The position numbers were made by a program, and so were the translations under genes. From assembly GCA_028679405.1 (NCBI GenBank), contig JAJRBP010000278.1, positions 1-19,109 on the forward strand: a DNA stretch of 19,109 nt. The letters run 5' to 3'. Positions within the stretch are counted from its first letter, which is position 1. The number at the start of each line of letters is the position of its first letter. Source of the stretch: Methanoregulaceae archaeon. GTDB lineage: Archaea; Halobacteriota; Methanomicrobia; Methanomicrobiales; Methanospirillaceae. Positions 2 to 19,109 of the stretch are shown piece after piece. The notes under the pieces are model-generated. The model worked only from the letters and a program-made list of their open reading frames with translations. It had not been told where the DNA came from and ran no database searches.

Positions 2-3206
<3,205 letters not shown>

Positions 3207-3216
3207 AGGAATCGGA

Positions 3217-3513
3217 ATGGATTTTAATGCTTCATTAAGAAGGGCCATCAAGACCGGAGATGTCCTGCTTGGCCAGCACATAACTGAAAAAAGTATCCAG
3301 TCTGGCAAGGCCCAGATTGTGGTAGTGGCTGCGAACTGTCCGGAAGAGTTTCGGGAGAAGCTGAAGGCGTATCCCGACCTTTTCATTCATACCTTCGAAG
3401 GCTCAAGCGTTCAGCTTGGCAAGTCGTGCGGAAAACCTTTCATGGTAAGTGCACTCGCGATCATCGATCCAGGTGAGTCAGACATCCTTACCCTTAAGAG
3501 GGCTTCGGCATGA
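3217..3513 (+). CDS. rpl30e: 50S ribosomal protein L30e
   Basis: A 98-aa protein of the L30e/L7Ae superfamily fold, a component of the archaeal large ribosomal subunit. Recognisable segments are LRRAIKTGDVLLGQ near the N-terminus, a central IVVVAANCPEEF strand-turn, and the SSVQLGKSCGKPFMVSALAI segment near the C-terminus. It starts at ATG 10 bases after the rpoA2 stop, with GAGG seven bases upstream of the start. Its place between rpoA2 and nusA is the standard archaeal arrangement, which supports the assignment over a tRNA-modification or L7Ae paralog. It overlaps nusA by 4 bases. Confidence 0.95.
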   Translation: MDFNASLRRAIKTGDVLLGQHITEKSIQSGKAQIVVVAANCPEEFREKLKAYPDLFIHTFEGSSVQLGKSCGKPFMVSALAIIDPGESDILTLKRASA

Positions 3514-3962
3514 CCGAGGTGAAGCTGACCGAGGACTGTCTCGGCCTGATCTCACAGTTCGAGCGGCTCACCGGAGCGGGGAGCAGGGACTGTGTCATCG
3601 ACGACCGGAACAACAGGATCATCTTCGTGATCAATCCGGGCGAGATGGGACTTGCCATCGGGAAGCAGGGTGCGAGCATCAAGAAGGCCTCGGACGTAAT
3701 GGGAAAGAAGATCGAGGTCGTCGAATACTCGCCGAATCCCGAGCAGTTCCTCCGCAACTGCTTCCTTCCGGCAAAGGTGACATCGATCGAGTTCGAGACC
3801 CTCGATGACGACGGTCAGCAGATTGCGCATATCGATGTCCGGGACGAGGACCGCGGTATCGCTATCGGGAAAGAAGGGAAGAATATCTTCAAGGCGAAGA
3901 AGCTGGCCCAGCGGCAGCATAATATTGCAGATGTCCAGCTGGTCGCGAAAGAGCCGGTGTAA
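3510..3962 (+). CDS. nusA: NusA-like transcription factor, two KH domains
   Basis: A 150-aa archaeal NusA homologue that consists only of two KH RNA-binding domains; the S1 and N-terminal RNA polymerase-binding domains of bacterial NusA are absent, as is usual in Archaea. The two GXXG loops are visible: GKQG at residues 51-54 and GKEG at residues 120-123. Its ATG overlaps the L30e stop in an ATGA junction, preceded by GAGGG. It is presumed to act in transcription elongation or termination, but the archaeal protein is less studied than the bacterial one. It is the last gene of this operon in the window and is followed directly by a T-rich tract. Confidence 0.94.
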   Translation: MTEVKLTEDCLGLISQFERLTGAGSRDCVIDDRNNRIIFVINPGEMGLAIGKQGASIKKASDVMGKKIEVVEYSPNPEQFLRNCFLPAKVTSIEFETLDDDGQQIAHIDVRDEDRGIAIGKEGKNIFKAKKLAQRQHNIADVQLVAKEPV

Positions 3963-3993
3963 TCTTTTTCCTTTGCATTTTCTCTTGTTTTGC
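3963..3993 (+). terminator. T-rich tract after nusA, probable terminator
   Basis: Directly after the nusA stop come several T runs (TTTTT, TTTT, TTTT) with little purine between them. Intrinsic termination in Archaea depends mainly on such U-rich stretches and needs no strong hairpin. It marks the likely end of the RNA polymerase operon. Confidence 0.6.
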
Positions 3994-4282
3994 GAAATGT
4001 AGTTTGAATACAAGCAGCCTCTTTGATCTCACCTGATCCTGTCAATCGGCACATTCTTCAGGTTCCTCCGGCTGGTCTCTGTGAACAGGTTTTGGATATC
4101 CCGGAAAACAAGACGGAGAATGTCAATCCCGTTGATGCCCCGCTGAATTCATGACCACGGGGTGAGAGGGACAGACCTGTACGGTCGTTTGCGTTATCAA
4201 ATGGATTGGACTGGTTCAACTCATGCCGTCAGCCAGAGTCAGAACTGTCGTTTCAGGAGAGATCCGGACTTTTCACAAGAAA
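3994..4282. other. Non-coding stretch between nusA and tRNA-Arg
   Basis: No convincing gene was seen in either strand. Reading frames here are interrupted or run across the tRNA on the opposite strand. The part next to the tRNA (4271-4282) gives a short T-rich trailer when read on the minus strand. It may hold the 3' untranslated part of the nusA transcript and the tRNA trailer; no repeats or attachment site were recognised. Confidence 0.5.
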
Positions 4283-4357
4283 CGGGCCTGGAGGGATTCG
4301 AACCCTCGACATCCGGGTTAGAAGCCCGGCGCTCTATCCGGGCTAAGCCACAAGCCC
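4283..4357 (-). tRNA. tRNA-Arg (anticodon UCU)
   Basis: A complete cloverleaf folds on the minus strand. The acceptor stem GGGCTTG pairs with CAGGCCC (one G-U pair), the D stem is GCTT/GAGC, the anticodon stem CCGGG/CCCGG closes the loop CTTCTAA, and the T arm is GAGGG-TTCGAAT-CCCTC. The anticodon at loop positions 34-36 is UCU, which reads the arginine codon AGA (and AGG by wobble). The variable loop has five bases. The discriminator base is G (4283). CCA is not encoded; the next bases read TTTCTT. No intron is present. It stands alone, not in a tRNA cluster. Confidence 0.95.
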
Positions 4358-4626
4358 ATGTCATACATTATGTGCGATATGAGGTCATGAACGTATGGAA
4401 CGAGAGGAGGATCCTTCTGCAGCTTTACCAAATCCTCCGGAATGATCCTGGAAAATTCCATGGCATCAACAGGAATTGGAAAAGATATCTGACCATTTCA
4501 TGGGTAACCTTCATACCAGTGTGTAAACGGAAGTCAGGGACGCTTGTCTGGTTACCGCCCGGAATAATCGAGAGGTAATGAATTTATCAGAAAAATGAGG
4601 GTACCTGATATCTTTTGAAAATGCAT

Positions 4627-8914: not shown

Positions 8915-10789
8915 TTACACAGGCCGGAGCCTGATCGTCTCGCCCTGGTTGTACCGTTTCAGCATCTCCTGGGCGATTGTACTATTCTTTCCGAGATGGA
9001 TCTCCCCTGTTTCGTTGACGGTTGCGGTAAAGAGGTATTCCTTGCCAGCAAAGACGTCCACGATCTTCCCTGCATGCTCTGCTGCTACGATGGAGAGCTG
9101 CTTTTTATCCAGGCGGATCTTCACGCCGCCCCCCAGCTGGAGCTCTTCTTCCGCGGGTGCGGGTGGCGTCTTCTCCAGTTCGCTCCTGGGTCTGATGTCG
9201 ATCCCGATCCCGACTTTATTCACGATGGCCGCGATATTCTTGCCCCCCTTGCCGATAGCCGCCGGGACGTCTTTGTCCTCGATATAAACAACTGCCTTAG
9301 TATCCGAGAGCATATGGACTTCTATCTCGCCATCCGAGTAGCGCCCGATTTCCCGCTGGATTTCCTTTTCCGTAATTTTCCAGGCAGAAAGCGGCTCCTC
9401 GTGTTTCTCCTGGACCGCATGTGGCTGAGCCGGTGGTCCCTCAGGGCGCAGGATCGGCATCACGATCGTTTCGCCATCGTACTTGAAGATCTCGAAAGCA
9501 AGCTCCCCTGTCTCCTGATTATGGACGGTAGTAACTGGCCGCAGGTGCATCTCAGACATGCCTTCGGGGACTTTGATCGTAAACCCGATATCGTATACAT
9601 CCGTGATCTCCCCCTTGTTCACGAAGATGATCGTATTGATCGTCTGAGGAAGCACCCCGAAATCGACCCTGTCGGAGAACCTCTGGAGAGCGTCCTGTGC
9701 CCCGATAGCATGGACAACCCCGATCATCCCGATACCGGCGAGGCGCATGTCGGCAAACACGCGAAAGTCTTCATCTTTCCGGAGCTCGTCGAAGACGACG
9801 AAATCCGGACGGACAAGCAGGAGGACGTCTGCCGTGTTCTGCATGCTCCCTTCGAGAGAAGTATACTGGGTGATATGATCCGGCACCTGGAGCTCTCTCG
9901 GGGTCTCCATCGTCTTCACGATAAACGAGTGATCGGCAAGGTAGGTGGCGACACTCTGTGCGAGAGTGGTTTTTCCTGCCCCGGGGGGTCCGGCGATGAG
10001 AAGGCCACGTTTCTCCCCGACGATCCTCGTCTTTATCATGCCAGCCTTCTTGTAGTCGTCGAGCACCACGTCGACGATCGGTCTCACGGCCGTTATCTCC
10101 ATCCCGTCCGAGAACGGGCGTCTCGCGATTGCAATTCGCATCGACCCGATCTGGACAACGGTTATCCCCCGCTTTTCGAGCTCGATGAACCCGTCCGGAT
10201 CACGTTTCGCACGCTCGAGGATCTCCTGCGCAAGACCCCGGAGTTCGTAATCCGTTGCCGGTTGCTCACGGATCTTCACAAGGTGCATCTCCTTGATCGT
10301 TCCCTTTCGTGCAAACGGTGGAACTCTCTCCTTCAGGTACACTGCGATCGTATGCTCATCGAAAAACTGGTCGATTCCAAGGGGGGTAAAGTCTCCGATC
10401 TGGGGCTTGAGGTATACTACATCAAGGCCCTTTGCCTTGGCAACCTCAGCCTGAACGATGTCGCTGGTGATGAATTTTGCAGAATTTTCCAGCGCCACGT
10501 TCCGGATCATGGCATCGATCTCCCCACCGCTCGCAAGCTTCACCTGCTCGAGCGTGGGACGGATGCCGGTAAATTTCAATCCGATTGTTCCTTCTTCTGC
10601 AAGCTTGCACAGCGCCTGGAGTTCGGTAAGTCCTGAGAAACCGATCTCGCGACCCTGGTTCGCCTGTGCCTCCAATTCCGCTACCACGGCTTCCGGTATG
10701 ATGATTGACGCACCTTTATATTCACCCGTTTTTATCATTGAGGTGATGCGTCCATCGATGACAACGCTTGTATCCGGTACAATTATCAA
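8915..10789 (-). CDS. PIN domain-ATPase-KH domain protein (PINA-like)
   Basis: A 624-aa fusion conserved across Archaea. Residues 1 to about 130 form a PIN nuclease-like domain with candidate metal-binding acids D6, E38, D92 and D110. Residues about 240-430 are a PilT/VirB11-like P-loop ATPase with Walker [10 protein letters not shown] (267-275) and Walker B VVFDE (331-335). A KH domain with GKGG (513-516) follows, then a beta-rich C-terminal piece. The Sulfolobus homologue PINA is reported to work with Holliday junction processing; RNA-related roles have also been proposed because of the PIN and KH domains. Despite the PilT-like ATPase it is not a pilus motor. The start is TTG at 10789 with GGTGA five bases before it; the first residues [12 protein letters not shown] are the typical PIN start. 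Confidence 0.92.
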
Positions 10790-11186: not shown

Positions 11187-11966
11187 TCACACCAATGAAA
11201 GGACAATAAAGATAAGGTCTCCTATGCACAGCGCCATGATTACCCCTGCGGTAATCGGGATGATGAAAGGGATTCCGTAAAGGATCCATACATGGCCTGC
11301 ACGCTCGTAGAGGGCAATTTCATCCCGGTATTTCTCAGGGTCCTGCCTGAGATCCCTTGTATAGGTGGTCCTCTGCCCCCGCAGAGCGCGGACCATGAGA
11401 TCTCTTGCAGGGATGAACCTCCTCTGTAGCGTACCATCGGCATCTGCAATATCCTCCATGACAAAACCGTGTGATTTGCGAATCGTCTTCCCTGAGACGG
11501 GAAATCCGAAGAAGAGATAGTGGGCGGGGGCCCTGTTGCCACGGGATATATTGTAAAGAAATATCCCGACAGGTACGAAGAGGTTGAGAATAACCGCATT
11601 GGTCAGGACCGAGAACGGGAAATAACCCAGCGGGGTCTGCCCAAGGAGAGGCGTCACCGGGAAGAGTGGGATGAAGAGAGTGATAAAAATGAAAGCCCAT
11701 GCATCCGCCCCTCCAAAGAGATTGAAATAGGCAAAGAGATAGAAAATGATGGAGAATATAACGGAGAAGATAAGGCAGAACGCAAGGAGCGGGTATCGGG
11801 CTTCGAGAAAAAAGGTCAGGTAGAGATATCCGATGGCCGGGATCCCTGTAATGATCGCGGGATACCACGTCCTGAACGGAACCCGCCTGTCCCGGTAATC
11901 AAGTACCGAGGCGTAGAGAAGCGTGACGACCATCACGAACGAGGTAAATACGAGTGGGAGTATCAT
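11187..11966 (-). CDS. A24-family prepilin/prearchaellin peptidase
   Basis: A membrane aspartic protease of 259 aa that removes class III signal peptides from archaeal pilins or archaellins. It has about six hydrophobic segments. Both catalytic aspartates are present: D23 in VLDYRDRRVP after the first TM segment and D88 in FGGADAW, the GxHyD-type motif. A soluble loop (about residues 150-225) with basic patches precedes the last two TM segments; this C-terminal part is typical of archaeal members. An in-frame TTG at 11987 would add seven residues, but AGAGGT lies nine bases before the ATG at 11966, so I prefer that. It is the first gene of the minus-strand operon. Pilus assembly genes at 16226-19109 probably supply the machine that uses its products. 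Confidence 0.9.
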   Translation of the reverse strand: MILPLVFTSFVMVVTLLYASVLDYRDRRVPFRTWYPAIITGIPAIGYLYLTFFLEARYPLLAFCLIFSVIFSIIFYLFAYFNLFGGADAWAFIFITLFIPLFPVTPLLGQTPLGYFPFSVLTNAVILNLFVPVGIFLYNISRGNRAPAHYLFFGFPVSGKTIRKSHGFVMEDIADADGTLQRRFIPARDLMVRALRGQRTTYTRDLRQDPEKYRDEIALYERAGHVWILYGIPFIIPITAGVIMALCIGDLIFIVLSLV

Positions 11967-12017
11967 CTGCTTAAAACCTCTGGCCAAATGGTATTTCTAT
12001 CCTCCCCAGATCGGGAA

Positions 12018-12127: not shown

Positions 12128-12745
12128 ATGGAAATAGTCGGATTCCTGCAGGAAAACACGAGAAAGGGCCAGGGACGGGGCCCCTTCCATCTGAGTGACC
12201 TGATCCAGATGGTTGAAAAGCAACAGGAATCCGGGATTGGTGTGTCGGTCGGAAAGACCACGACGATATATGTCCTCTTCTCCCGGGGGGAACCTGATGG
12301 TGCGGTCGCAGTTGATGAGAAAGGAGCGTTGTTTGGTGATAAAGCAGTACTCCTTCTGAAAGGCGGCGAGTTGTTCGAGTTCTTTACAATTGATCCTGAG
12401 GATATCGACGGTGTAGTACTGGGATGCCGTATCTTCCAGAAAGGACATATCAAGAAGACGATGATGCCGAATATTCCCCGGATCATAAACAGGAACGAGG
12501 GAATGGGCCAGTTTATTATGACGGTGCACAGCAGCGGGGTTCCCCAGTCGGGAATTCATGTATCCCTCCGCAGGCGTGGCCAGATTGTTGGAAGTGATGT
12601 GACCACCGGGGAGGGGAAAGCATACTTCAAGATACTTTTCGGTTCATACTCGTGTGCGATCCTTGACCGGGACCACAAGATAAGGACATTCCAGTTTGAA
12701 TTCAACCGATCCGGCTACGAACTCCGTGTTGATCTGGGAGATTGA
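12128..12745 (+). CDS. Uncharacterised protein: sensor-like N-domain plus beta-sandwich C-domain
   Basis: A 205-aa protein I do not recognise as a named family. Residues about 20-110 have a pattern of an amphipathic helix (LSDLIQMVEKQQESG), then short strands with IYVLFSRGEPDGAVAVDE and a helix GDKAVLLL. This resembles the N-terminal domain of the 196-aa protein at 14556-15146 and the DUF2226/DUF4388-like small domains often found near roadblock genes. Residues about 125-205 are beta-rich with GVPQSGIHVSLRRRGQIVG and a TGEGKAYFKI turn, like carboxypeptidase-regulatory or Ig-like sandwiches. There is no signal peptide or TM segment, so it is probably cytosolic. The ATG at 12128 is the only in-frame start near the TATA element. 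Confidence 0.7.
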   Translation: MEIVGFLQENTRKGQGRGPFHLSDLIQMVEKQQESGIGVSVGKTTTIYVLFSRGEPDGAVAVDEKGALFGDKAVLLLKGGELFEFFTIDPEDIDGVVLGCRIFQKGHIKKTMMPNIPRIINRNEGMGQFIMTVHSSGVPQSGIHVSLRRRGQIVGSDVTTGEGKAYFKILFGSYSCAILDRDHKIRTFQFEFNRSGYELRVDLGD

Positions 12746-12991: not shown

Positions 12992-13201
12992 TTATTTTAT
13001 ATGCATTTCCCGCTTGAACCCCTCGACATTCTTCGTGAGATCCTCAAGCTCATTGTCGGTAATCGAGATGCGGTTCGCCATCCCGTCGCTCTCGTTAAGT
13101 AACTGTCGGATCCTTACATACATCACGTACATGACGAACGCCTGGATGGCGATTACGATCCCGAATATTATGAGAATATACACGACATAATCGGGGGTCA
13201 T
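12992..13201 (-). CDS. Small membrane protein with one TM segment and a cytoplasmic helix
   Basis: A 69-aa protein. Residues about 5-29 form one strong TM segment (YVVYILIIFGIVIAIQAFVM and following). The remaining 40 residues are polar, rich in E, N, D and K with heptad-like hydrophobic spacing, so probably a short coiled coil. Basic residues just after the TM segment (RIRQ) suggest the C-terminal part faces the cytoplasm. I recognise no family. Its ATG overlaps the stop of the MinD gene in an ATGA junction, which implies coupled translation and a possible role as membrane partner of MinD. It is the last gene of the operon. Confidence 0.75.
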   Translation of the reverse strand: MTPDYVVYILIIFGIVIAIQAFVMYVMYVRIRQLLNESDGMANRISITDNELEDLTKNVEGFKREMHIK

Positions 13202-13989
13202 GTCTTGCTCCTGAAGAGAACCCGTGCGAACCGGTCGATGAATCCGTCCTGCGTCACCTCGCCTTTCATCGGTTCCTTAAATGCGACCCCGGCCAGTTCT
13301 GCGGCAATTCGTTTTATCGCAATCGATGAACCCGATTCAGGGAATTTAATGACAACAGGGGTCTTGGAAGCAGCAGCCCTGCGGACATTCGGGTCTTCGG
13401 GTATGGTCCCGATGACCTTTACGCCGAGTACCCGCTCCATCTTCTGACTGATAAGATCCGAACGATCGGGGCCTGCCCGGTTGAGGATCGCCCCGAGGAC
13501 ATGGCCGCCTACCACTTCCGTAAGAATTTTAATTTTCAGGGAATCGACAATCGAGGCAAGCTCAGGGTTAACCACGAGAATAACCTGATCTGCAATCGCG
13601 AGAGGGATCACCCCGTCCCTGCTGATCCCCGCCGGGGCATCGATGAGCAGGAATTCACACCGATCGACGAGGTCCTTCATCACATCACGGAGATTCTCCG
13701 GATCCGCCTGCTGGAATCCCTGGAGAGAGATGCCGCTGGGGATAACCTTGACACCGCCGGGCCCCTCATAAATGGCATCCTTGACATTGGCCTTACCGGC
13801 AAGCACCTCGTGAAGTGTGACGGGAACATCCTCGAGACCTAAAATAAGACCGAGGTTCGCCATCCCGATATCGGCATCCATTATAAAAGTTTCTTTTCCA
13901 AGCAGCGCAAGAGATGTCCCCAGATTCACGGTCAGCGTGGTCTTCCCGGTGCCACCTTTCCCCGATGCCAGCGTATATACCTGAACCAT
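13198..13989 (-). CDS. minD: MinD/ParA-family ATPase
   Basis: A 263-aa P-loop ATPase of the MinD branch. The deviant Walker A motif SGKGGTGKTT is at residues 9-18 with the signature lysine K11, the switch I region DADIGMANLGLILG at 38-51, and the Walker B/switch II motif LLIDAPAGIS at 114-123. Such proteins dimerise with ATP, bind the membrane and position other machines; Haloferax MinD4 positions archaella and chemosensory arrays. The C-terminus DGFIDRFARVLFRSKT looks like an amphipathic membrane-targeting helix. The ATG at 13989 has GGGGT four bases upstream. It lies between the membrane roadblock gene and the 69-aa gene, so a role with them is more likely than cell division. Confidence 0.92.
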   Translation of the reverse strand: MVQVYTLASGKGGTGKTTLTVNLGTSLALLGKETFIMDADIGMANLGLILGLEDVPVTLHEVLAGKANVKDAIYEGPGGVKVIPSGISLQGFQQADPENLRDVMKDLVDRCEFLLIDAPAGISRDGVIPLAIADQVILVVNPELASIVDSLKIKILTEVVGGHVLGAILNRAGPDRSDLISQKMERVLGVKVIGTIPEDPNVRRAAASKTPVVIKFPESGSSIAIKRIAAELAGVAFKEPMKGEVTQDGFIDRFARVLFRSKT

Positions 13990-14026
13990 TTAACCCCGCA
14001 CCATCAGATCCTTCCCATTCTAAGAT

Positions 14027-14545
14027 CTATATCCACAGACTCAATATAATTTTTACATCATCTTCAACATTTGCCCTCCATTCGGGAGAGGGATCCCGAT
14101 CTGGATGAACGATTCCGATGAGAGGGATGCCATAATAGTCGATCGGAAATACCTGCGCAGTGCTGCTGCGCTCAATCCCGGAAGAGGTTATCGTCTTATA
14201 GAGCGCCGCCTCCTCATGTGGATCGGATCGTGTCGAGGCGACTGCAAGTCCGTCGGTTGTTGCGACGGTGATCGATGCGAGTGAATATCGCTCCGCAACT
14301 GACCGTAACGCTACTGTGAAATATGGATCGAGTCCCGATACTGCCGAAGATCCGGGTGCCGCGGATGGGCCGTGGAGCAGGGCATCCCTGGTCTTCTTCC
14401 GGTGCGCGATTTGTGCATTTCTCTTTTTACGGATGTACAGGGCGATCCAGATGAGGAACGCGATTGCGACGAGCCCGATGATGAGTATCAGGGAGAGGTC
14501 AGCCAGATTAAGCCCCCCCTCCGCCAAGACTGGATTTAAAACCAT
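14027..14545 (-). CDS. Membrane-anchored roadblock/LC7-like protein
   Basis: A 172-aa protein. Residues about 17-42 are one TM segment (LSLILIIGLVAIAFLIWIAL), followed by a basic stop-transfer (RKKRN), a short linker rich in A, S, P and G, and a soluble domain from about 75 to the end. That domain has a helix (TVALRSVAERYSL), strands ITVATTDGLAVAS, a helix, and strands PIDYYGIPLIGIVHPD with a final helix, the order expected for roadblock/LC7 folds; similarity is weak and partly judged by pattern. The domain would face the cytoplasm. The ATG at 14545 follows a GGGGGAGG with only a very short gap, and the previous gene ends 10 bases upstream. No class III signal peptide is visible, so it is not a pilin. 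Confidence 0.72.
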   Translation of the reverse strand: MVLNPVLAEGGLNLADLSLILIIGLVAIAFLIWIALYIRKKRNAQIAHRKKTRDALLHGPSAAPGSSAVSGLDPYFTVALRSVAERYSLASITVATTDGLAVASTRSDPHEEAALYKTITSSGIERSSTAQVFPIDYYGIPLIGIVHPDRDPSPEWRANVEDDVKIILSLWI

Positions 14546-14555
14546 TCCTCCCCCG

Positions 14556-15146
14556 TCATTTCATGAGCAGATAGTCAAGATGCAGCTGCCTGATAGTGTT
14601 CCTGCAGTTGTCCCTGATCTTTTCAGTCATGCTCTCCAGGTCTATTGAATCGAGGGCATCAAGGTCGGAAACGGCAGTTCCTGGCATCCCGTCCTCTGCC
14701 GGACCTGGCTGGACATCCTGGGCAGGTTTCTGGCCCCGCATTTCTCCTGCGGTTTTGTGACTCCCGGGTGGTTGCCCGATTGGCCGTTCCTCCTCCGGGT
14801 GCGGCTTTCTTTCGCGGGTATGTTTCTTCCCACCCGCGGGTTCAGTTACCCGCGCATTCTGGTTGAATTCGGTTGCCAGCTTGAGTTGTGCCGGACTCAG
14901 CAGAGAGAGTGCGGCGTCGATCTCCCTGTCACTATGTGCCAGAATCTCCTCTACAGCCGTGTTTCCTGATTTGTGCCCGAGTGTTGCAAGCACAACTCTT
15001 CCGTCCTTAGTGACAACCGAGCCGGCGTGTCCTTCAAGGGTAAAAGTGCAGGACCCGGAAAAAGCGGTTTTCCCAAGGTTCTCCAAGAGTTCCGACATCC
15101 TGATATTTTTCATTACTGAATGGAATGTCCCTCTTGGGAGTTGCAT
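14556..15146 (-). CDS. Sensor-like N-domain protein with disordered linker (DUF2226/DUF4388-like)
   Basis: A 196-aa soluble protein. Residues about 17-95 form a small alpha/beta domain: MSELLENLGKTAFSGSCTF, then GSVVTKDGRVVLATLG and helices up to LKLATEFN. This pattern resembles the DUF4388/DUF2226-like domains that accompany roadblock and signalling genes. Residues about 100-160 are rich in P, G, K, E and Q and probably disordered. The C-terminus (about 162-196) is helical, ending in DNCRNTIRQLHLDYLLMK, possibly a partner-binding helix. ATG at 15146 is preferred because TTATAAAA lies 25 bases upstream and fits leaderless transcription; internal ATGs at 15113 and 15098 are alternatives. First gene of the four-gene minus operon. 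Confidence 0.72.
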   Translation of the reverse strand: MQLPRGTFHSVMKNIRMSELLENLGKTAFSGSCTFTLEGHAGSVVTKDGRVVLATLGHKSGNTAVEEILAHSDREIDAALSLLSPAQLKLATEFNQNARVTEPAGGKKHTRERKPHPEEERPIGQPPGSHKTAGEMRGQKPAQDVQPGPAEDGMPGTAVSDLDALDSIDLESMTEKIRDNCRNTIRQLHLDYLLMK

Positions 15147-15166
15147 AGGTAGAGGTACTTGTTCAT

Positions 15167-15174
15167 TTTATAAG
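15167..15174 (-). promoter_or_regulatory. TATA box of the minus operon
   Basis: TTATAAAA on the minus strand is centred about 25 bases before the ATG at 15146. The distance implies transcription starts at or next to the start codon, so the mRNA is probably leaderless; no Shine-Dalgarno sequence is present. Confidence 0.65.
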
Positions 15175-15236
15175 TCTTTTGCCCCGTAACAGGGCTGATT
15201 CCAGCGGGATATGGATTTAAAATCCCCATGCCGGAG

Positions 15237-15283
15237 ACCTGCATAATTTTTCCGGCTGGAACGTTCCAACACAGGATGCAGGT
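15237..15283. repeat. Nested inverted repeats: possible operator
   Basis: ACCTGCAT (15237-15244) and ATGCAGGT (15276-15283) are exact inverted copies. Between them lies TGGAACGTTCCA (15257-15268), a perfect 12-base palindrome. The two symmetries have nearly the same centre (15260 and 15262.5). The layout suits a dimeric regulator or two stacked sites. Confidence 0.55.
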
Positions 15284-15327
15284 GTCATCCGGGCAATAAA
15301 ATTTTTATTCTCATCAGGAAAGATAGT

Positions 15328-15337
15328 TTTATATATT
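15328..15337 (+). promoter_or_regulatory. TATA box of the first soluble roadblock gene
   Basis: TTTATATATT is a near-perfect methanogen TATA box, centred about 28 bases before the ATG at 15361. This predicts a start of transcription within a few bases of the ATG. GAGGGT just before the ATG looks like a Shine-Dalgarno site but would then not be transcribed, unless the A/T-rich element near 15296-15309 is used instead. Confidence 0.6.
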
Positions 15338-15360
15338 GATATTTTTGGGAGAGGGTCAAG

Positions 15361-15708
15361 ATGCTCAAACAGGTGCTCGGTGAATTTCTGAAGATTGAAG
15401 GGGTGAATGCAGCGGTTGTTGTCGGGAGGGATGGTTTTGTTATCGAGAGTGCAGTGTCCGGTAAAGTCGATATCGATGCGCTCGGTGCGATGGCATCCAC
15501 TGGGATGGGGACTGCAGAAGCAATGGGGAAGGAGCTCCAGAAAGGAGAGCTCCAGCAGATGCTTGTCGAGCTGGAGAAAGGCCCCATTATCCTCTCGCCG
15601 CTCTCAGCCGATGAGTTGATCGCAATTGTCGCCGATACAACCGCGAATACAGGAAGAATCCGATACGACCTGAAAAAGAATAAAGAACGGTTGATTGCTG
15701 CTCTTTAA
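15361..15708 (+). CDS. Roadblock/LC7 domain protein
   Basis: A 115-aa protein made of one roadblock/LC7 domain, the fold of bacterial MglB and of dynein light chain LC7. Recognisable segments are the N-terminal helix MLKQVLGEFLKIEGV, strands AAVVVGRDGFVIESA, the long helix IDALGAMASTGMGTAEAMGKEL, strands MLVELEKGPIILSPL and LIAIVADTTANTGRIR, and a last helix with KKNKERL. MglB-type proteins act as GTPase-activating partners or polarity scaffolds of Ras-like GTPases, but no such GTPase is in the window. It is transcribed divergently from the minus operon and precedes a second roadblock gene by 79 bases. Confidence 0.92.
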   Translation: MLKQVLGEFLKIEGVNAAVVVGRDGFVIESAVSGKVDIDALGAMASTGMGTAEAMGKELQKGELQQMLVELEKGPIILSPLSADELIAIVADTTANTGRIRYDLKKNKERLIAAL

Positions 15709-15772
15709 TTCATATGCACCAAGAAAACAGTGTACAAATAAGTGGACAACTACAATTCAGCACTGACGGGAG

Positions 15773-15780
15773 AAGGAGGG
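15773..15780 (+). promoter_or_regulatory. Shine-Dalgarno site that decides a GTG start
   Basis: AAGGAGGG lies seven bases before the GTG at 15788 and supports this start for the second roadblock gene. Confidence 0.7.
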
Positions 15781-15787
15781 AATAAAA

Positions 15788-16159
15788 GTGGGAGATGAGC
15801 AACCGCCACGGGTGGGGATGGGACCGGATGCGCTCGATATCCGGACACTTGAAAAGATCCTGGATCTTCCCGGGGTGATCGCGGTATCCGCCTTTTTCGA
15901 AGGTTTTGCAGTACAATCGCTTGGCACTGCTGATTTTGACATGGTGGCGGCGATGGCTGAGGATCTCCTCAGGGCAGGGATGAAAACAGCTTCGAATATG
16001 AAGATTGGCCTGTTCAATCAGATTATTCTTGAAACCAGCGCAGGAAAATTTATTATCGCACCTTATGGTGATCTATTCCTGTGTATCTACACAGGTGTCG
16101 ATGCGAACCTTGGATTGATCAGGGTGTCGCTCAAGAGTATCCAGAATGCATTACATTAA
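15788..16159 (+). CDS. Second roadblock/LC7-like protein
   Basis: A 123-aa protein with the order of elements of a roadblock domain: helix RTLEKILDLPGV, strands IAVSAFFEGFAVQSLG, long helix DMVAAMAEDLLRAGMKTASNM, strands NQIILETSAGKFIIAPYGD and FLCIYTGVDANLGLIR, last helix SLKSIQNAL. An N-terminal tail of about 15 residues precedes it. It differs much from the roadblock protein before it, so the pair may form a heterodimer. The GTG start has a strong Shine-Dalgarno sequence. It follows the first roadblock gene by 79 bases with no clear promoter between, so both are probably on one mRNA. Confidence 0.85.
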   Translation: MGDEQPPRVGMGPDALDIRTLEKILDLPGVIAVSAFFEGFAVQSLGTADFDMVAAMAEDLLRAGMKTASNMKIGLFNQIILETSAGKFIIAPYGDLFLCIYTGVDANLGLIRVSLKSIQNALH

Positions 16160-16191
16160 TGCAAACCATCAAATGAGATAATCGTCCTCAG

Positions 16192-16199
16192 TATATAAG
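16192..16199 (+). promoter_or_regulatory. TATA box of the secretion ATPase gene
   Basis: TATATAAG is centred 30 bases before the ATG at 16226. The expected start of transcription falls about four bases before the ATG, giving an almost leaderless mRNA, in line with the lack of a Shine-Dalgarno sequence. Confidence 0.65.
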
Positions 16200-16225
16200 C
16201 GGGACGCACAAGGGCAGATGTCCGA

Positions 16226-18454
16226 ATGGGTAACACTACAAAGAACGAAAAGAAGGAACCGGGGTTCTTCAAGAGGCTGATCAAGAGTGGGAAAGAGGCG
16301 GATCCACCGCCGATCAAGCGAAAACCACTTCCTGATATCGATCAGGAGATCGAGAACCTCGCCGATCTCATCGGGAGGACGAATGATGAAGGGAACAAAG
16401 AGGGCGTGGTCTCCGATCTTGTACTGAAAGAGAGTCCTCCCGGGTCGGTACCTGCCGGGCCTGAAACCAGGATCCTGTCCCCGGAGACGACCAAAACTGT
16501 CCAGGTAAGTAAGGAGAATCAGGATGAACCTGCAGGGACCAAAAGTGTCCTCATGCCCGGCATCGGCCCCAAGGAGATCGTCGTCGCAAGAAAGATACCG
16601 AAGGCACAGTGGTCTGAGAGCGGCCCCGAACCGGACGAGCATATTGTCAATGTAGACCAGGTCAAGGATCTCTCCGGTCTCATCCTCCCCAAGGGGGCGA
16701 CGTTCCAGGTCGATGAGGTCAAACTCCATAAGCCGAGTGCGAACCTTGCCTCTTCTGCGGTCATTCCTGCAGAGATGGATGAGATCTGGAAGAAAGGCCT
16801 TCCGACTGGTGGTGTCAAGGACATCAATCTCGATACCGAAGAGGCAGGAACTGCTGGAAAGGAGGGAGTCTTCAAGAAATTCAGCCTGTCCAAGATCATT
16901 CACCACAAGGCTGAAGAGTATGATCCAAGAATTCACGGTCCTCTTGTCGACCTCACATTCCGCCCGCGACCCGGGGTTGAAGAGCTTGAAGTCTACCCGG
17001 TGAATGAACCCTTTGCATACGTCCGGATCACCTATGATCATAACTCACATGAATCCACCTACGAGGTTCTCGAACCCGTTCTCTCACCAGCCGAGCTTGA
17101 TCTCCTTTCAGAACTCAAAGAACGCATTTTCGAGAGGCTCGATATAAATTCGAGAGATATTGTACCCGAATTTGCAAAGACGACTCTCCGACAGGTAACC
17201 GACGAGATTATTGCGGACTACGGACTCACGCTCACTCCGGTCCAGCACCAGAAGATTCTTTATAACATGTACAAGGAATTCCTGGGCCAGGGACTTATAG
17301 ACCCCGTGATGCATGACAAATACATCGAGGATATCTCATGCGACGGAGTCAATTGTATCATTTTCGTGTATCATTCCCGGTTTGAGTCGATGAAGACGAA
17401 CATCATGTTCACCGAGGCGCAGGACCTCGATTCCTATGTCACGAAACTCGCCCAGAGGGCCGGGAAGTACATCTCTATCGCAGAGCCGATGCTCGACGCG
17501 ACCATGAGCGACGGGTCTCGTATCCAGATGACACTGGGCCAGGAGGTGACTGCGCACGGATCGACATTTACGGTCAGGAAATTCAGGGAGGAGCCCATCA
17601 CCCCGACCGACCTGATCGACTGGGGGACGTTCTCACCGCTCTCGATCGCCTTCCTCTGGCTTGCGATCGAGGCAGGGAAATCGTGCATTTTTGCCGGAGG
17701 GACTGCTTCGGGGAAGACGACCTCGTTGAACGCAGTCTCGCTGTTCATTCCGCCTCTCGCAAAGATCGTCACCCTTGAGGATACAAGGGAACTTAAACTC
17801 CCGCATTCGAACTGGATCCCCAGTGTGACCCGTGCCTCTTTCGACACGGAGGGGAAGGGGGAGATCGATATGTACGAGCTCCTCAAGGCTGCCCTGCGGC
17901 AGAGGCCGGAGTACATCCTTGTTGGTGAAGTGAGGGGCCGGGAGGCTCTCACGCTCTTCCAGGCGATGAGCACCGGGCACGTCACCTATTCGACCATCCA
18001 TGCAGACTCGGTTGCCAGCATGGTGCACAGGCTTGAAAACCCTCCACTGGATGTCCCGAGGAACATGCTCTCAGCACTGGACCTCGTCTCAGTTCAGGTG
18101 CAGGTCCGGGTCGGAGGGCAGCGTATCAGGAGAAACAAGCAGATAATCGAGATCCTGGACATAGACCCCCGCACGAACGAACTCATTACCAATGAAGTGT
18201 TCCGGTGGCGCCAGGTCTCTGATGAGATAAGTTACTCCGGCAAGTCATTCATCCTGGAAGAGATCATGGAAGCCCGCGGGTGGAACGAGGACCGGGTCAG
18301 GGAAGAGTTGAAAAGACGCCAGGAGGTCCTTGAATGGATGCGTCTGAAAAAGATCAGGCATTTCCGTGATGTCTCAAAGATCCTTGTATCGTATTTCAGG
18401 GACCCGGAGGCTGTGATCACGAAGGTAAGGACAGAACTTTATGAACAGTTATGA
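16226..18454 (+). CDS. Type II/IV secretion (archaeal pilus) ATPase
   Basis: A 742-aa hexameric motor ATPase of the GspE/VirB11/FlaI family that powers assembly of type IV pilus-like structures. The core holds Walker A GGTASGKTTS (491-500), the Asp box TLEDTREL (516-523), Walker B ILVGEVRGRE (564-573) and the His box TGHVTYSTIHADS (583-595); all key residues are present. Residues about 235-460 form the N-terminal domain of archaeal members. The first 230 residues are an extra, mostly polar extension rich in P, K, E and G, with two short basic amphipathic stretches (FFKRLIKSG at 14-22 and FKKFSLSKII at 216-225). Many relatives lack so long an extension. ATG 16226 fits the TATA box. It overlaps the platform gene by 14 bases. 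Confidence 0.94.
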   Translation: MGNTTKNEKKEPGFFKRLIKSGKEADPPPIKRKPLPDIDQEIENLADLIGRTNDEGNKEGVVSDLVLKESPPGSVPAGPETRILSPETTKTVQVSKENQDEPAGTKSVLMPGIGPKEIVVARKIPKAQWSESGPEPDEHIVNVDQVKDLSGLILPKGATFQVDEVKLHKPSANLASSAVIPAEMDEIWKKGLPTGGVKDINLDTEEAGTAGKEGVFKKFSLSKIIHHKAEEYDPRIHGPLVDLTFRPRPGVEELEVYPVNEPFAYVRITYDHNSHESTYEVLEPVLSPAELDLLSELKERIFERLDINSRDIVPEFAKTTLRQVTDEIIADYGLTLTPVQHQKILYNMYKEFLGQGLIDPVMHDKYIEDISCDGVNCIIFVYHSRFESMKTNIMFTEAQDLDSYVTKLAQRAGKYISIAEPMLDATMSDGSRIQMTLGQEVTAHGSTFTVRKFREEPITPTDLIDWGTFSPLSIAFLWLAIEAGKSCIFAGGTASGKTTSLNAVSLFIPPLAKIVTLEDTRELKLPHSNWIPSVTRASFDTEGKGEIDMYELLKAALRQRPEYILVGEVRGREALTLFQAMSTGHVTYSTIHADSVASMVHRLENPPLDVPRNMLSALDLVSVQVQVRVGGQRIRRNKQIIEILDIDPRTNELITNEVFRWRQVSDEISYSGKSFILEEIMEARGWNEDRVREELKRRQEVLEWMRLKKIRHFRDVSKILVSYFRDPEAVITKVRTELYEQL

Positions 18455-19109
18455 GCGGTTCTGCTTCAACCTGCTGGGCGACCGGGTAAAGTCGAAGAGG
18501 GACAAATACGCCTCCCTGCGGAACGATATACTTTCTGCCCGGATCCGCACTCCGTTTGAGGTCTATCTTTCGACGGCCCTGGTAAGCTCGATCATCGTGG
18601 GACTGATCAGTGCCGTTGTTATCGGCGCGTTCACGTTTTTATTAAACCTCACGAAGATGGTTACCTACAGGGGAGCCGTTCCGGATTTCCTCATCCCGCT
18701 TTCACAGCACAGCCTCATTTTAGGAACCATCGCCGTGACTATCATCTCCCTGATTGTATTCGGCGGAGTCACTTACCTGATCTTCATATTGTACCCCTCC
18801 ATCGTGGCCGGTGGCCGTAAGAGGAATATCGACGCCACTCTTCCGTACGCCATCAACTACATCACGGCAATGTCTACCGCAGGTATTCCCCCGGCGGAGG
18901 TCTTCCGGCAGCTCGCCAGCAGTACCATATACGGTGAGAGCTCGGTTGAAGCGAGGTACATCACCCGTGAGATCGACATGTTCGGCAAAGACCTAATCGA
19001 TGCACTCAGGATTACCTCGACCTCCACCCCAAGTCTCCGGATGAAGGAGTTCATCCAGGGCACAATGGGGAGCATCGCGAGCGGAAGTAACCTTACCACG
19101 TATTTCCGG
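18441..19109 (+). CDS. TadC/FlaJ-like pilus membrane platform protein (3' partial)
   Basis: The first 223 codons of the membrane platform that works with the secretion ATPase. The ATG at 18441 lies inside the last codons of the ATPase gene, in another frame, and the frame is still open at the window end. Two TM segments flank a short loop: about residues 43-68 (STALVSSIIVGLISAVVIGA) and 93-120 (ILGTIAVTIISLIVFGGVTY). The following RKRNIDATLPYAINYITAMS with STAGIPPAEVFRQL is the conserved cytoplasmic start of the GspF/T2SSF domain. Family members have further TM segments beyond the window. Translation is coupled to the ATPase by overlap. Pilin genes may follow downstream. Confidence 0.9.
   Translation, partial: MNSYERFCFNLLGDRVKSKRDKYASLRNDILSARIRTPFEVYLSTALVSSIIVGLISAVVIGAFTFLLNLTKMVTYRGAVPDFLIPLSQHSLILGTIAVTIISLIVFGGVTYLIFILYPSIVAGGRKRNIDATLPYAINYITAMSTAGIPPAEVFRQLASSTIYGESSVEARYITREIDMFGKDLIDALRITSTSTPSLRMKEFIQGTMGSIASGSNLTTYFR

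Follow-up and report, generated by a model that had tools for sequence, protein, structure and literature searches.

What do MinD and roadblock proteins do beside the motor of an archaeal type IV pilus? The question is raised by a 19,109-nucleotide stretch of DNA from a Methanoregulaceae archaeon (contig JAJRBP010000278.1 of assembly GCA_028679405.1; hereafter the window), which belongs to a metagenome-assembled genome (MAG) of 1.86 Mb in 318 contigs, 73% complete. An earlier note, made from the sequence alone, had described two divergent gene sets in it, and all eight open reading frames (ORFs) of these sets, here named A to H, are present as described. The left operon, D-C-B-A (minus strand), encodes a DUF4388/PATAN-like protein, a membrane protein, a MinD ATPase and a membrane protein of 69 amino acids (aa), and the right operon, E-F-G-H (plus strand), two roadblock proteins, a PilB3/FlaI-like motor and a membrane platform (Table 1). 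We call D-C-B-A plus E-F the module; K and X are flanking genes of the pilus unit. Our preferred explanation, to which we give somewhat less than an even chance, is that the module is an accessory spatial or signalling device, tied to a hydrogenase in most relatives and acting here on the motor of the type IV pilus.

The earlier note took the two gene sets to belong together, and comparison of gene order across Methanomicrobiales and beyond agrees. D, C, B, E, F, G and H are all found together in each of the 16 same-family loci fetched, a clustering that is not chance; these loci represent 16 of the 18 other same-family genomes having both C and F (G081 and G089 are not among the full regions), and both genes are absent from 6 of the 25 family members drawn. 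Across the family the genes generally run K-, X+, (A)-B-C-D-, E+F+G+H+, with K and X in 15/16 loci (L082 ends early). In a comparison set of 120 genomes of the order Methanomicrobiales, grouped in families (f1, Methanoregulaceae, is that of the window; f5 comprises Methanoculleus and near kin), C and F each occur in 85 genomes, 84 of them shared (Fisher test 1e-27, uncorrected for ancestry). The two genes are also kept together when far apart, lying within 6 kb of each other in 48/84 genomes and farther apart in 36/84. G (E up to 1e-180) is found in 97/120 genomes and in 82 of the 86 that have C or F; the exceptions are three MAGs of 56-62% completeness (G050, G056, G061) and G092 (93%). The large subunit (LSU) of a hydrogenase that adjoins the module in relatives (E up to 1e-100) occurs in 62/120 genomes, all 62 with C or F and 60 with both. 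Presence is nested nearly without exception, the hydrogenase inside the module and the module inside the pilus motor. Among the 86 module genomes, 24 are without LSU: 19 of the window's family plus G044, G050, G075, G083 and G108 (G083 and G108 show what is left of an LSU or a fragment of it at a contig end). The motor without the module is found in 15 genomes, namely eight of family f6, G047, G077, G085, G113, G031, G087 and G091; G085 carries a decaying version, in which MinD and a fragment of D are left and C, E and F are gone.

The link to the hydrogenase is not visible from the window because the window's family lacks the enzyme: it is absent from all 16 fetched same-family loci and from every genome of the family in the comparison set. 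When 84,980 genomes were scanned separately with an alignment of F, 76 named loci emerged, titled Methanoregula, Methanolinea, Methanoculleus, Methanofollis, Methanogenium, other Methanomicrobiales or plainly 'Euryarchaeota', in agreement with the order assigned to the window; in these loci, E/F neighbour pilus genes only (30 loci), hydrogenase genes only (27), both (14) or neither (5; L134, L145, L146, L153 and L159, all short of module or neighbours). The genes involved, known from relatives, encode a ferredoxin (FD), a 187-aa protein (P187) and the small (SSU) and large subunits of an Mvh-like [NiFe] hydrogenase. The hydrogenase, with its ferredoxin and V4R-like protein, adjoins module genes in Methanoculleus, Methanofollis, Methanogenium marinum and Methanocella. 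Families f3 and f4 and part of f2 have D-C-B-A at a separate locus, in several genomes beside RNA polymerase genes; their E-F follows FD-P187-SSU-LSU immediately and precedes X-G-H, all on one strand, some loci having a second MinD gene and a DUF4388-like gene in between. In f5 and in other f2 genomes, one run comprises a protease gene, D-C-B(-A), FD-P187-SSU-LSU and E-F and is free of pilus genes. The earlier reading of the set as dedicated to the pilus must therefore be given up, because hydrogenase operons carry the same genes and the loci of Methanoculleus and Methanocella have no pilus gene. The association reaches further than Methanomicrobiales. Of 294 genomes of the phylum, 66 have a match to a profile of C, and 25 of these belong elsewhere than in the order; among the 20 of the 25 that were fetched, MinD (>300 bits) stands next to C in 7 and the hydrogenase in 1 (G122, Archaeoglobi-type). 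There a single run contains P187-SSU-FD-LSU, C, B, a membrane protein of 60 aa, E and F, interrupted by two or three further genes. In both Methanocella genomes fetched (G127, G136) a single run reads FD-P187-SSU-LSU-E-F-D-(237 aa)-B-A; in G202 and G163, E adjoins P187, P187, SSU, FD and LSU; and in both f18 genomes, also outside the order, A-B-C is divergent to a G-H pair.

LSU is Mvh/Vhu-like, yet it scores far under the cut-off of the VhuA model (405 versus 800 bits), and none of the five cluster proteins tested matched MvhD or Hdr. Its active site looks intact, since both cysteine-pair ligands, RxCGxC and DPCxxCxxH, are retained. FD has two 4Fe-4S motifs, and P187 gives matches, all weak, to PF14196 in 5/11 and to V4R in 2/11 members. 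The LSUs of the three Archaeoglobi-type module loci stop right at the last active-site histidine; the module LSUs of Methanomicrobiales and Methanocella keep a C-terminal tail, cleavable-looking in the methanogens. Regulatory HoxC is described as being without the C-terminal extension typical of standard enzymes (PMC10073562). In the LSU tree the module LSU of Methanocella and the second, Mvh-type LSU of the same genome form separate clades (100/99, 100/100), and the module LSUs of Methanomicrobiales form one clade with modest support (80/91). Two Mvh-type hydrogenase sets, one of them near Hdr, were reported in Methanocella paludicola (PMC3146512); by position, the module-linked one would be MCP_2492-2493, not the Hdr-adjacent set. 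The hydrogenase Memar_1007-1008 of Methanoculleus marisnigri has been assigned as a heterodisulfide reductase partner (PMC2686161), and, if our reading holds, it deserves a second look.

The motor itself offers a possible point of contact. Ahead of its conserved core, G has a long and variable N-terminus, probably disordered, in which residues 141-168 (VNVDQVKDLSGLILPKGATFQVDEVKLH) form a candidate docking motif. A hidden Markov model (HMM) of this motif, built from 17 same-family motors and called at >10 bits, was used to score 96 of the 97 motors (the partial one of G032 was left out); none of 960 shuffled sequences scored above 6.4 bits. The motif was found in 76 of 81 module-bearing genomes (f1 19/19, f2 15/20, f3 7/7, f4 12/12, f5 23/23) and, outside the training family, in 57/62; in the five module genomes below 10 bits a divergent form is visible by eye. 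It is present in none of the ten deeply module-less genomes (eight of f6, G047 and G077). Function rather than neighbourhood is indicated because the motif is present in f5, where motor and module are unlinked. We propose, judging from this sequence pattern, that the motif may be the docking site of the module.

Several observations weigh against a module acting on the pilus motor. The motif is kept in 5/15 module-less genomes (G085, G113, G031, G087 and G091), the relatives of which carry the module (G087/G091 and G113: weakened form); a motif strictly tied to the module is rejected on this count and on that of the 5/81 module genomes below 10 bits. Module and motor are not neighbours in f5, and the K-G-H unit, mostly with X, also occurs without the module. 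In the Methanocella (2/2) and the three Archaeoglobi-type loci, hydrogenase and module genes are found with no pilus genes beside them, and the motif is present in 0/30 motors of Methanocella, Archaeoglobi-type and f18 genomes, which implies that the pilus was not the original target; this fits an older module recruited to the pilus within Methanomicrobiales. In the LSU tree, the Archaeoglobi-type module LSUs fall outside the other module LSUs (88/98, long branches), and a single origin of all module hydrogenases is rejected since they are not joined to the rest. One locus, L100 (G075), has D-C followed directly by E-F without MinD or hydrogenase. All occurrence and locus counts, moreover, ignore shared ancestry, which alone could mimic the distribution of the motif.

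MinD proteins pattern membranes, and roadblock proteins are scaffolds for small GTPases. In the mechanism that we propose, the roadblock pair E/F, PATAN-like D, the membrane proteins C and A and MinD B would be docked on the pilus unit K, X, G and H. MinD B would bind the membrane via its C-terminal helix and, with A and C, mark a membrane place; E/F and the PATAN-like domains present in D and F would jointly serve as a signal-carrying scaffold. This scaffold would meet the motor at the conserved N-terminal motif of G, and the contact may decide where or when the pilus gets built. In most relatives the signal would come from the Mvh-like [NiFe] hydrogenase with its ferredoxin and V4R-like protein, which makes H2 or redox state the probable input. 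Module and pilus are kept in the window's family without the hydrogenase, and there the module would have to be fed otherwise. Precedents exist for single steps: a PATAN response regulator reportedly binds the pilus motor PilB1 (PMC7690835), and MinD4 and MinD2 affect the placement of the archaellum in Haloferax (PMC11588486). A bolder version, which we consider unlikely, is a kinase-less archaeal H2 signalling route, leading from a sensory hydrogenase through ferredoxin and the V4R-like protein to the MinD-placed roadblock/PATAN scaffold and on to the motor motif, by which methanogens would let H2 govern the extension or placement of their pili, for example towards syntrophic partners; the window would then be a version that has lost the hydrogenase. 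The data suggest, short of proof, that such microbes may be able to tie the use of pili to hydrogen. If true, this would provide a first tangible lead on how H2 could be coupled to attachment or contact in hydrogenotrophic methanogens.

The module could instead primarily serve the hydrogenase, by anchoring, placing or assembling an Mvh-like electron-transfer complex at the membrane, the pilus being a later or incidental association and the window's family having kept the module for another enzyme or reused it. The hydrogenase is never without the module in the order (62/62), and the two occur together without the pilus in Methanocella, in Archaeoglobi-type G122 and in Methanoculleus. LSU, with both cysteine pairs and the cleavable-looking tail in the methanogens, and a maturation protease in the f5 operons point the same way. 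However, 24/86 module genomes are without the hydrogenase (at E 1e-100), 19 of them a whole family with the module beside the pilus; the motor motif follows the module; and neither MvhD nor Hdr is among the cluster genes tested, so that we hold this explanation to be possible but rather doubtful. Still less probable is that hydrogenase, module and pilus share nothing but regulation, being co-expressed under low H2 with no contact. Co-directional runs in relatives and the separate TATA-like boxes of the window would agree with it, but the co-occurrence persists where C and F are apart (36/84 pairs beyond 6 kb) and a motif within the motor protein covaries with the module.

A marking of the pole as by MinD4, in which B alone matters for the pilus and the roadblock proteins are unrelated passengers, draws on B being a good archaeal MinD, on the placement of the archaellum by Haloferax MinD proteins (PMC11588486) and on the expectation of MinD for archaeal pili (PMC4858521). 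It is very improbable, given that E/F are still beside pilus or hydrogenase where the locus shows no MinD (for example L163, L184 and L186) and that C and F are lost together (84/86). As for chance neighbourhood, the earlier note had reasoned that left and right sets at unrelated loci, with no contacts between the proteins, would point to it; the left set does lie far from the right one in two families (f3 and f4) and in part of a third (f2), but all 16 same-family loci have them together, a second MinD gene and a DUF4388-like gene can be part of the pilus locus itself in f3/f4, and the same partners recur outside the order. Chance is largely refuted by these comparative data and scarcely credible.

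The earlier note held that the set was not a described system, which is correct in part. Roadblock and MinD genes near archaeal pili have been in print since 2016: the roadblock family arCOG02603 is found in many archaeal type IV pilus loci, and MinD/FleN ATPases are expected to serve them (Makarova, Koonin and Albers 2016, PMC4858521). The archaeal clade 2 (PilB3-type) loci of that work resemble ours in the FlaI/PilB3-like ATPase, the two T2SSF platforms, the lack of a recognised pilin nearby and the roadblock arCOG02603 and MinD/FleN associates; they differ in that the accessible text mentions no D-C-B-A operon, hydrogenase or motor motif and in that MinD is described there as mostly stand-alone. 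In the open-access literature searched, arCOG02603 was not met beyond this paper, and among the matches listed neither the link between hydrogenase and module nor the motor motif was found described (subscription papers and preprints lay outside). Other systems share single traits. The MglA/MglB polarity switch of Myxococcus likewise links roadblock proteins to a type IV pilus motor, but no MglA-like GTPase is present in our locus, where MinD stands instead of a Ras-like switch, and E scores 21 bits with the MglB family model NF052242, well short of its cut-off of 200. The Haloferax MinD2 and MinD4 genes are stand-alone. Like B, these MinD ATPases are tied to the placement of a surface machine; unlike here, no roadblock partner is mentioned in the accessible text (PMC11588486). 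The H2-sensing hydrogenases HoxBC/HupUV are comparable as [NiFe] hydrogenases in a signalling cluster and in the absence of the C-terminal extension, as in the three Archaeoglobi-type LSUs (PMC10073562); the present hydrogenase, in contrast, is Mvh-like (group 3-like), no histidine kinase was recognised in the loci and the methanogen LSUs are tailed. Cyanobacterial PATAN regulators such as PixE act on the pilus motor ATPase (PMC7690835), whereas here the domain occurs on D, F and X without CheY and its PATAN membership is read from weak matches. HGbRL joins a putative gas sensor (PMC4476040) to a roadblock domain, but there a globin, not a hydrogenase, is fused in one protein. For MinD, roadblock and PATAN-type proteins alike, a role in steering surface machines is known or suspected; in these methanogens they form one conserved unit, accompanied by the candidate docking motif in the motor and with the hydrogenase as its likely input.

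Table 1. Features of the window, with positions counted from its first nucleotide.
Feature	Position	Strand	Description
K	11187..11987	-	Archaeal prepilin (FlaK-like) peptidase; Peptidase_A24 + Arc_PepC_II; part of pilus unit
X	12128..12745	+	PATAN/DUF4388-like N-domain + carboxypeptidase-regulatory-like C-domain; belongs to pilus unit; immediately precedes G in many relatives
A	12992..13201	-	69-aa protein; N-terminal membrane helix + coiled tail; overlaps B translationally
B	13198..13989	-	MinD ATPase; deviant Walker A KGGTGKTT, possibly amphipathic C-terminal stretch
C	14027..14545	-	Membrane-anchored protein; soluble domain, possible roadblock/longin fold
D	14556..15146	-	PATAN/DUF4388-like protein; domain, linker, conserved C-terminal helix
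Divergent control region	15147..15360		Two separate TATA-like boxes
E	15361..15708	+	Roadblock/LC7 protein; Robl_LC7 59.4 bits (Pfam cut-off 23)
F	15788..16159	+	Roadblock/LC7 protein; Robl_LC7 24.8 bits (Pfam cut-off 23)
G	16226..18454	+	Type IV pilus/archaellum-type motor ATPase (PilB3/FlaI-like); T2SSE; weak PilB3_N, PilB3_C; long N-terminal extension
Candidate docking motif in G	16646..16729	+	28 residues
H	18441..19109	+	TadC/FlaJ-type membrane platform; T2SSF; cut by window end

Among the proteins of the left operon, B is firmly an archaeal MinD, as the earlier note had it (TIGR01969 326 bits, cut-off 202), with the deviant Walker A motif KGGxGKT invariant in 20/20 homologues. Its C-terminal stretch has a hydrophobic moment of 0.57, which was equalled by 49 of 1000 shuffles and ranges from 0.41 to 0.63 across 20 homologues. 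A, for which an alignment of 16 homologues was built, was recovered in 6/16 same-family loci with one sequence and in 7/16 with an HMM; an A-like gene follows B also in Methanocella, Archaeoglobi-type and f18 loci. C had been described as a membrane roadblock-like protein; the membrane part of this label stands and the roadblock part is suggestive, Pfam giving no roadblock match in 23 members, which leaves C without an assigned family, and hhalign placing C against E at 7%, or at 56% using broader alignments. These figures fall short of establishing C as a roadblock protein. For D, a sensor-like protein in the earlier description, we prefer the softer label DUF4388/PATAN-like: it scores 16.8 bits with PF14332 (DUF4388), under the cut-off of 25, with weak matches (E up to 0.05) in 9/22 members, and hhalign puts it at 91.7% against the N-terminal domain of F.

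The roadblock labels of E and F hold, both proteins scoring above the Pfam cut-off. E is highly conserved (69-89% identity to 12 orthologues from five families), and F carries an extra N-terminal PATAN-like domain in most relatives, which the window's copy lacks. Against this F domain hhalign puts X at 84.9% (X against D, 43.5%). CarboxypepD_reg was found in 5/19 members of X, and the window's X is without any Pfam match. Pfam likewise bears out the pilus ATPase and membrane platform labels of G (T2SSE) and H (T2SSF). The nearest solved structure to G is 2oap (452 bits), and the archaellum motor FlaI/ArlI was rejected as its identity because it stays under the cut-off of that model (414 bits versus 550 for NF058587). 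In relatives a second T2SSF protein follows H (10/10 loci by similarity, T2SSF confirmed in 4/4 tested). We assign K and X to the G-H machine because both adjoin G-H in relatives, in the order K-X-G-H in L206, L207, L202 and f5 loci and as K-G-H in L203 and L204. The relatives thus hold all that defines a clade 2 (PilB3-type) unit, namely the ATPase, two platforms and a FlaK-like peptidase, and the window holds one platform before the contig ends. No pilin gene was recognised beside ATPase and platforms in relatives, though no dedicated pilin search tool was used.

In agreement with the earlier note, no Ras-like GTPase stands beside the set, none being found in module loci or among ten window proteins scanned by Pfam/NCBIfam. 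The genome-wide search covered the Arf/Ras-type family PF00025, but not PF00071 or PF08477; it gave short frames in 5/16 genomes, all of them away from the module, and a small GTPase partner was rejected on this one-family search. Two of the five (G101, G053) are located about 5-6 kb from an Frh-type large subunit and may be hydrogenase maturation GTPases.

Gene spacings (A/B -4, B/C 37, C/D 10, E/F 79, F/G 66 and G/H -14 bases) and the 214-base gap between D and E fit two divergent operons. TATA-like boxes are found at 15328 (+), 33 bases ahead of E, and at 15174 (-), 28 bases ahead of D. The gap also holds a perfect palindrome, TGGAACGTTCCA, at 15256-15267, which was rejected as a shared operator since it recurs in 0/16 same-family gaps examined.

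Elsewhere in the window, positions 2-4358 encode, by eye, RNA polymerase A'/A''-type genes and L30e-like and NusA-like proteins, followed by tRNA-Arg (TCT) at 4282-4358; the module set lies about 10 kb from the RNA polymerase genes. The ribosomal protein S12 gene usually follows nusA; by eye, with no family search made, no S12 ORF was seen after the NusA-like gene in this region. A 624-aa ATPase at 8915-10789 (-) looks, by eye, PIN-KH family-like (MJ1533-like), a family set apart from pilus motors (PMC4858521). In L102, L106, L110, L112 and L116 (f4, f3, f2), D-C-B-A lies near RNA polymerase genes and a response regulator gene, with an E-like roadblock gene in 4/5. Homologues of C in L301, L302, L307 and other loci of f9, which we take to be Archaeoglobi, are paired with a conserved, probably secreted protein of 209-240 aa instead of D. 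The window's own genome has a second roadblock pair (G000 C214:11188-12320), consisting of an E-like protein (47.9 bits) and an F-like 290-aa frame, and in L194, L195, L197, L121 and L214 a second divergent E-F-like roadblock pair faces a prepilin peptidase gene on the far side of the hydrogenase run.

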